In this document: positions 29,167-30,466 of the stretch, in pieces
How the letters are laid out: every line of letters begins with the position of its first letter
Numbering within the stretch: the first letter of the stretch is position 1
The notes under the pieces: model-generated
The model's database searches: none
Told to the model about the DNA's origin: nothing
The model's input: the letters and a program-made list of their open reading frames with translations, nothing else
Source of the DNA: Desulfobacteraceae bacterium
Lineage (GTDB): Bacteria; Desulfobacterota; Desulfobacteria; Desulfobacterales; JAABSP01
NCBI GenBank assembly: GCA_011390345.1
Contig: JAABSP010000015.1
Location: forward strand, 1-64,000
Direction of reading: 5' to 3'
DNA: 64,000 nt
Position numbers and translations under genes: made by a program

Positions 29167-30466
29167 ATGTCGAACTTGATTCCCCCGCATGGCGGAAAAG
29201 GCCTGACCTGTTGTCTTCTGGAAGGCGCTGAGCTTGAAGCCGAAAAGAAAAAGGCCGCCGGCCTGAAGCAGATTCCCATTACCCCCCGCGCCAAAGGTGA
29301 CCTGATCATGATGGGCATCGGCGGATTCAGCCCCCTCACCGGCTTCATGACCAAGGCCGACTGGAAGGGCGTCTGCGACAACTATCTGATAGCCGACGGC
29401 ACCTTCTGGCCCATCCCCGTGACATTTGACGTCTCCCGGGCCGATGCCGACGCGATCAAAGAGGGCGATGAGATCGCGCTGGTGGACCCCCAGACCAATG
29501 TGGTCATGGCCACCATGAAGGTCACCGAGAAGTATGAGATGTCCGAGGACGAGAAGAAGTACGAGTGCGAGAAGGTCTTCATGGGCGAAGGCACCCCGAG
29601 CGCTGACGAGTTCTGGAAGATCGCGAAAGACGATCATCCGGGTGTCCAGATGGTCATGAACCAGAAGGAGTTCAACCTGGCCGGCCCTGTCAAGGTGCTG
29701 AGCGAGGCCGAATATCCGGAAAAGTACAAGGGAATCTATCAGCGCCCCGAAGAGTCCCGGAAGATCTTCGATGACCGCGGCTGGAAAGAGGTTGCGGCCC
29801 TGCAGCTCCGGAACCCCATGCACCGCTCCCACGAGTACCTGGCAAAGATCGCGGTGGAAGTCTGCGACGGCGTCTTCATCCACAGCCTGGTCGGCAACCT
29901 GAAGCCCGGCGACATCCCGGCCGACGTGCGCGTCAAGTGCATCGACGTGCTGGTGAAGAACTATTTCGTCGAGGACAAAGTGGTTCAGGGCGGATATCCC
30001 CTGGATATGCGCTATGCCGGCCCCCGCGAGGGTCTGCTGCACGCCACCTTCCGCCAGAACTACGGATGCTCCCGGATGATCATCGGCCGCGACCATGCGG
30101 GCGTGGGCGACTTCTACGGGATGTTCGAGGCCCAGACCATCTTCGACAAGATTCCGGCCCCTGAAGAGCCCGGAAAGGCGCTGCTCTGCACCCCGCTGAA
30201 GATCGACTGGACCTTCTACTGCCACAAGTGCGACGGCATGGCCTCCCTGCGGACCTGCCCCCACGGCAAAGAGGATCGGGTTCTTCTAGATCGGAAGAGC
30301 ACACGTCTGTCTCTCCGGCACCATGCTCCGGAAGCTCCTCTCCGAGGGCGGTGATCTTCCCGATCACTTCGGCCGGGACGAGGTGGTGGTGGTCCTGCGG
30401 GATTACTACGAGAACCTGACCGACAAGGTGGAGATCAAGACCCACAAGGCCGCAACCGGCTCATAG
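29167..30466 (+). CDS. sat: Sulfate adenylyltransferase (ATP sulfurylase), frame interrupted by adapter sequence
   Basis: Sat activates sulfate to APS, the first step of dissimilatory sulfate reduction. The reading frame from 29167 (SD AAGGAGAGA) shows the family signatures LQLRNPMHRSHEYL (QXRNPXHRXHE), DMRYAGPREGLLHA and GRDHAGVG, and a Cys/His zinc site CHKCDG...CPHG. At 30288 a 25-bp insertion, largely Illumina adapter, shifts the frame. Removing it joins DRVLL to SGTMLRKLLSEGG and runs in frame to TAG at 30464-30466, giving about 425 residues, the normal length. The break is therefore artificial. The terminator at 30514 shows that sat is monocistronic here. Apr and Qmo genes are not in this window. 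Confidence 0.95.
30288..30312 (+). other. Illumina TruSeq adapter embedded in sat
   Basis: AGATCGGAAGAGCACACGTC, continuing TG, occupies 30288-30309 and is an exact match to the start of the standard read-1 TruSeq adapter. Three more bases (TCT) complete a 25-bp insertion relative to the expected sat sequence. It is not biological. Confidence 0.97.

Follow-up and report, generated by a model that had tools for sequence, protein, structure and literature searches.

The window analysed here, a stretch of 64,000 nucleotides (C4:1-64000 of assembly G000, 4.79 Mb), contains a sat gene for ATP sulfurylase whose reading frame is broken, and the question raised by this locus is whether the sulfate-activating enzyme has been lost by the organism or whether the break belongs to the record. 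Both aprA and dsrA score above cut-off in the same assembly (C41, C184), and in none of 14 control genomes; by their presence the organism appears to be a sulfate reducer in which sat is in use. A second ATP sulfurylase, fused to an adenylylsulfate kinase, is encoded on another contig and shares 33% identity with the window protein across residues 6-314. The features discussed below are collected in Table 1.

Table 1. Features of the sat locus and related features elsewhere in the assembly
Feature	Position	Strand	Basis
sat (ATP sulfurylase, sulfate adenylyltransferase), 5′ part: codons 1-373 and two bases of codon 374	29167..30287	+	NCBIfam, Pfam, nearest relative
22 nt of Illumina TruSeq read-1 adapter, not part of the organism's genome	30288..30309	+	Exact match; sole genome copy at up to 3 mismatches
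TCT repeat found on both adapter flanks; with the adapter, the 25-bp excess; placing ambiguous by up to 4 bases	30310..30312	+	Five equivalent 25-bp windows; 25-bp join outscores 22-bp join
sat, 3′ part, from the remainder of codon 374 through codon 424 to the stop TAG	30313..30466	+	51-residue stretch 90% identical to nearest relative; gap-free join
False 395-aa ORF of the record, ending in 21 residues encoded by adapter and wrong frame	29167..30354	+	ORF translation; relatives
Second ATP sulfurylase: fused sulfate adenylyltransferase/adenylylsulfate kinase, 571 aa	C61 (L003:679-2394)		NF004040, 846.7 bits (cut-off 669)
TruSeq read-2 adapter, 23 nt, inside an ORF	G000:C108:3953-3975 (L044:1501-1523)		ORF has capsule-synthesis domain PF09587
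Read-2 adapter, 24 nt, inside a 638-aa ORF	G000:C133:6414-6437 (L046:1501-1524)		ORF on minus strand

The break coincides with a short sequence of laboratory origin. The TruSeq read-1 adapter, which we take to be AGATCGGAAGAGCACACGTCTGAACTCCAGTCA and to follow the insert in read 1, is matched in that form by all 22 bases of the window segment AGATCGGAAGAGCACACGTCTG, including the final TG, which the original prediction had set apart with a "plus". The match begins at the A of AGATCGG, directly after genomic sequence, and stops at 30309, where TCTCTCC follows instead of the adapter's AACTCC. Allowing up to three mismatches, the 22-mer was matched once in the window, in none of 100 dinucleotide-preserving shuffles and once in the whole assembly (4,794,238 bases in 199 contigs), against a chance expectation, from base composition, of about 6e-7 per genome.

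The effect on the gene is a frame shift caused by a 25-bp excess, consisting of the 22 nt of adapter and a 3-nt repeat, by which the last 50 residues are exchanged for 21 wrong ones and the protein is shortened from 424 to 395 aa. Residues 1-374 of the record ORF are normal, and its last 21 read DRKSTRLSLRHHAPEAPLRGR, whereas the true 50 C-terminal residues, absent from the record ORF, lie at full length 3′ of the adapter in a different frame that ends with the TAG at 30464-30466. Omitting 25 bases yields an open frame of 424 aa, with the sequence ...GTTCTTCTCTCCGGC... across the adapter-free join. Any of five 25-bp windows, from 30285-30309 to 30289-30313, restores the conserved stretch equally well because the flanks share bases (TCT on both sides). 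Omitting the 22 adapter bases alone also restores the frame, but leaves one extra Leu. The record ORF matches the NCBIfam models NF003166 and TIGR00339 and the Pfam domains PF01747 and PF14306; its NF003166 score of 434.3 bits rises to 472.5 in the joined protein (cut-off 387), and its TIGR00339 score of 323.9 bits, barely above the cut-off of 322.95, rises to 352. As both NCBIfam cut-offs are passed even by the broken ORF, an annotator would name sat correctly yet print a false C-terminus.

The shape of the undamaged gene can be read from its relatives. The comparison took in 109 related loci: whole genomes contributed 29 (55 of the 58 matching genomes listed), and the remainder were the best 80 of 397 contig matches; some genomes occur twice among them, leaving 97 distinct aligned sequences, and all conclusions on sat rest on comparisons that searched both strands. 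The relatives carry no insertion: between residues 360 and 390 there is neither a gap nor a stop in any of the 107 loci whose alignment spans residues 355 to 395, the other two (L101 and L108) being cut by contig ends. The 25-bp join, which restores the conserved protein, outscored the 22-bp join in all 108 loci whose alignment reaches the join, and omission of the 22 adapter bases alone was rejected on that count; L108, where the alignment ends at residue 364 and the two joins differ by 1 bit only, is uninformative and was left out. With tblastn, the 51-residue 3′ stretch was found in 107 of the 109 loci. The claim that omitting 25 bases joins the two halves of sat at normal length is thus borne out, at 424 aa and gap-free in 107 of 107 aligned loci, and the expectation that automated annotation would give a wrong C-terminus holds: 21 false residues are printed and 50 true ones lost. 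The gene name stays correct.

Among the 109 loci the nearest relative (L004 and L048, the record of the latter being titled S20.Bin200) shares 94.6% identity over 425 positions including the stop codon, with 95% over the 373 residues before the adapter and 90% over the 51 behind it. Codon changes against this relative amount to 101 silent and 18 replacement changes in the 373 codons before the adapter, and to 12 silent and 5 replacement changes in the 51 behind. The share of replacements is somewhat higher behind the adapter than before it (5/17 against 18/119), a difference that is not significant (Fisher p = 0.17). Silent changes prevail on both sides, the pattern expected of a gene that purifying selection still maintains.

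The adapter in sat is not a solitary remnant, and its companions in the assembly are the strongest added support for an artefact. The 13-nt core that the two adapters share, AGATCGGAAGAGC, occurs in seven copies in the assembly, the one in sat included, against 0.15 expected, and every copy extends 1-11 bases into read-1- or read-2-specific sequence (that on C38 by one base only), so that both read types are represented. Four copies run exactly to a contig end (C38, 14 nt; C107, 17 nt; C117, 17 nt; C142, 16 nt), and adapter tails at contig ends are the mark of untrimmed reads; the other three are internal (C4, 22 nt; C108, 23 nt; C133, 24 nt). A search with 10-mers of adapter gave 36 matches against 8.4 expected and added two contig ends with 11 nt of adapter, one on C83 and one on C117 opposite the end already known, so that C117 carries adapter at both ends. 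The contig-end loci (L042, L043, L045, L047, L145 and L151, on C38, C107, C117, C142, C83 and C117, respectively) hold 11-17 nt of adapter. The 27 10-mer loci that were read comprise the three known internal adapters, two contig-end matches and 22 that are internal, measure 10-12 nt and lie 12 on the plus and 10 on the minus strand; these last are probably ordinary genome, though commoner than base composition would lead one to expect. Another six matches out of the 36 fall outside the new loci, namely one on C142, read via the core search, and five unread ones on C147, C148, C184 (two) and C195; the match on C147 occupies bases 2-11 of its contig.

The internal copies on C108 and C133 differ from that in sat in that both ORFs remain open through the adapter, without a frameshift, and their proteins consequently carry adapter-coded residues, within SEERRVG (C108) and KTLHDALPI (C133). 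The 638-aa ORF on C133 had no Pfam match; three further genomes of the same family contain relatives. In the comparison with relatives, at least five distant relatives of the C108 ORF (25-29% identity) roughly equal the adapter-bearing ORF in the amount of sequence, and at least two same-family relatives of the C133 ORF (44-46% identity) have other sequence of similar length in place of the adapter; three of seven loci in this comparison (L007, L010, L012) are uninformative, their wrong strand having been read. This suggests that on C108 and C133 the adapter replaced about the same length of genome instead of adding to it, and the C108 protein may have lost genuine residues. Replacement there, set beside addition in sat, would make the three internal joins differ in detail, which tells against a uniform account.

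The adapter identity, the 25-bp excess, the gene uninterrupted in relatives and the other adapter tails in the assembly are matters of observation, and we regard it as very nearly certain that the excess in sat is a product of sequencing and assembly and not of biology. A short library fragment would have been read through into its 3′ adapter, which was left untrimmed, and the end of that read (genomic ...GTTCTTCT followed by 22 nt of adapter) could then have extended a contig into a place of presumably thin coverage. There the next contig, beginning TCTCTCC, would have been butted on, probably in a contig-joining or gap-filling step, although other orders of events are possible, and such a join would leave 22 nt of adapter and a 3-nt repeat inside sat.

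Among the alternatives, the one that survives best accepts the adapter as an artefact but supposes that it conceals a real lesion or lost bases, so that the true gene may differ at the join. The C108 and C133 ORFs lend it some colour, their distant relatives being about as long as the adapter-bearing ORFs, whereby genome may have been lost at those places. Against it, the 25-bp join gives the conserved residues without a gap in 107 of 107 loci, and any lesion would have to leave that join perfect; we consider it highly improbable. A real insertion of 25 bp, such as a mobile-element scar or a template-switch product, that broke sat and resembles the adapter by chance would fit the 3-nt flanking repeat, of the kind left by some mobile elements, as well as the slight and non-significant rise in replacement changes behind it. 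It would, however, be unrelated to laboratory oligonucleotides, whereas all 22 bases here are adapter, a coincidence of the rarity calculated above; it would also have to stand beside six further adapter copies, with both read types among the seven and four of the seven ending contigs, as well as a 3′ part still 90% identical to the nearest relative and the retention of aprA and dsrA. We judge such an insertion extremely improbable, and on these grounds reject both a mobile-element scar and a real sat pseudogene. Programmed frameshifting or another recoding signal that restores the frame over 22-25 bases has nothing in its favour except the frame change itself and is vanishingly improbable, the inserted bases being adapter and all 107 relatives aligned past the site lacking extra bases. 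Under the preferred reading, that of an adapter artefact, the organism's own sat is almost certainly intact, as its relatives and the adapter indicate; the original prediction, that the gene is whole in the organism and broken in the record, thus stands as to the record, which is broken by adapter, and as to the organism holds at that strength.

Similar scraps occur in other draft genomes. Among 389 genomes searched as relatives, the one under study included, the 22-mer is present in five, and the 13-mer has 32, 7, 5 and 1 copies in the other four (G078, G359, G183 and G155, respectively). Contexts were read at 32 of the 46 sites in G000, G359 and G078 (7/7, 7/7 and 18/32). The 18 internal sites read in these three genomes measure 13-24 nt and all lie on the contig plus strand, which points to a joining step in which the left piece retains its tail; the 14 terminal sites read measure 14-18 nt, and minus-strand copies, nine of nine, begin at base 2 to 6 of a contig. 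In G078, a draft genome of the same order, 13 of the 18 copies read (L036, L038-L040, L176, L179, L182, L184, L186, L188 and L190-L199 being its loci) are internal, all on the contig plus strand, and one of them (L186) consists of the 13-nt core only and could be a chance match; its 14 unread copies comprise 12 on the plus strand and two on the minus strand at contig starts. The tails in G183 and G155, which lie near contig ends, are longer, at 20-34 nt, and in some of them more adapter-like sequence follows; these two genomes look as if unscreened. Since the five genomes were chosen for holding the 22-mer and are a non-random sample, their adapter lengths are not a fair one either.

The moderate-match limits of NCBI VecScreen are 19 for terminal and 25 for internal matches, and the observed maxima of 18 (terminal) and 24 (internal) agree with them. 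We give an even chance to the wider proposition that drafts hold hidden adapter scraps just under screening length (up to 18 nt terminal and up to 24 internal), left by directional joining on the plus strand and breaking, or silently altering in frame, a few genes per affected genome; of the five genomes found to bear adapter, three show this pattern, the other two being G183 and G155. Strong matches against UniVec are given limits of 24 (terminal) and 30 (internal) in one published account (PMC5996228). NCBI runs VecScreen on submissions and states that its pipelines miss contamination; in 2022, common contaminants, a class comprising adaptors, vectors, insertion sequences and common genomes, were present in 9,381 of 155,618 bacterial and archaeal submissions (PMC10898089).

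The case has known parallels. It resembles adapter read-through in drafts (adaptor contamination) in its exact TruSeq prefix right behind genome, its two read types and its contig-end tails, but differs in that the sat copy is short and internal to a contig, which is probably why it passed screening. Errors described for metagenome-assembled genomes likewise include, where scaffolds are joined, overlaps that are duplicated and consensus that lacks support, and omitted curation is said there to place wrong protein-coding sequences in public databases; adapter as the filler of a join, in contrast, is not described in the main text of that account, which mentions adapter once, as removed before assembly (PMC7111523). 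A literature search for adapter-derived peptide strings gave no match, and no title on adapters inside assembled genes stood among the matches listed, a statement on those matches and not on all print.

The practical lesson is that drafts should be screened for internal adapter prefixes of 13-24 nt before pseudogenes are called, which is housekeeping and no discovery; two more internal adapter scraps, within ORFs, have come to light in this assembly. The finding on sat is correct but ordinary and matters only as a caution on database records. With 424 aa, 94.6% identity to its nearest relative and both NF003166 and TIGR00339 passed, the joined protein is like the sat of sulfate-reducing Desulfobacterota-type bacteria and differs by the artefact only, and the false picture of a sulfate reducer whose sulfate-activating enzyme is broken is removed.
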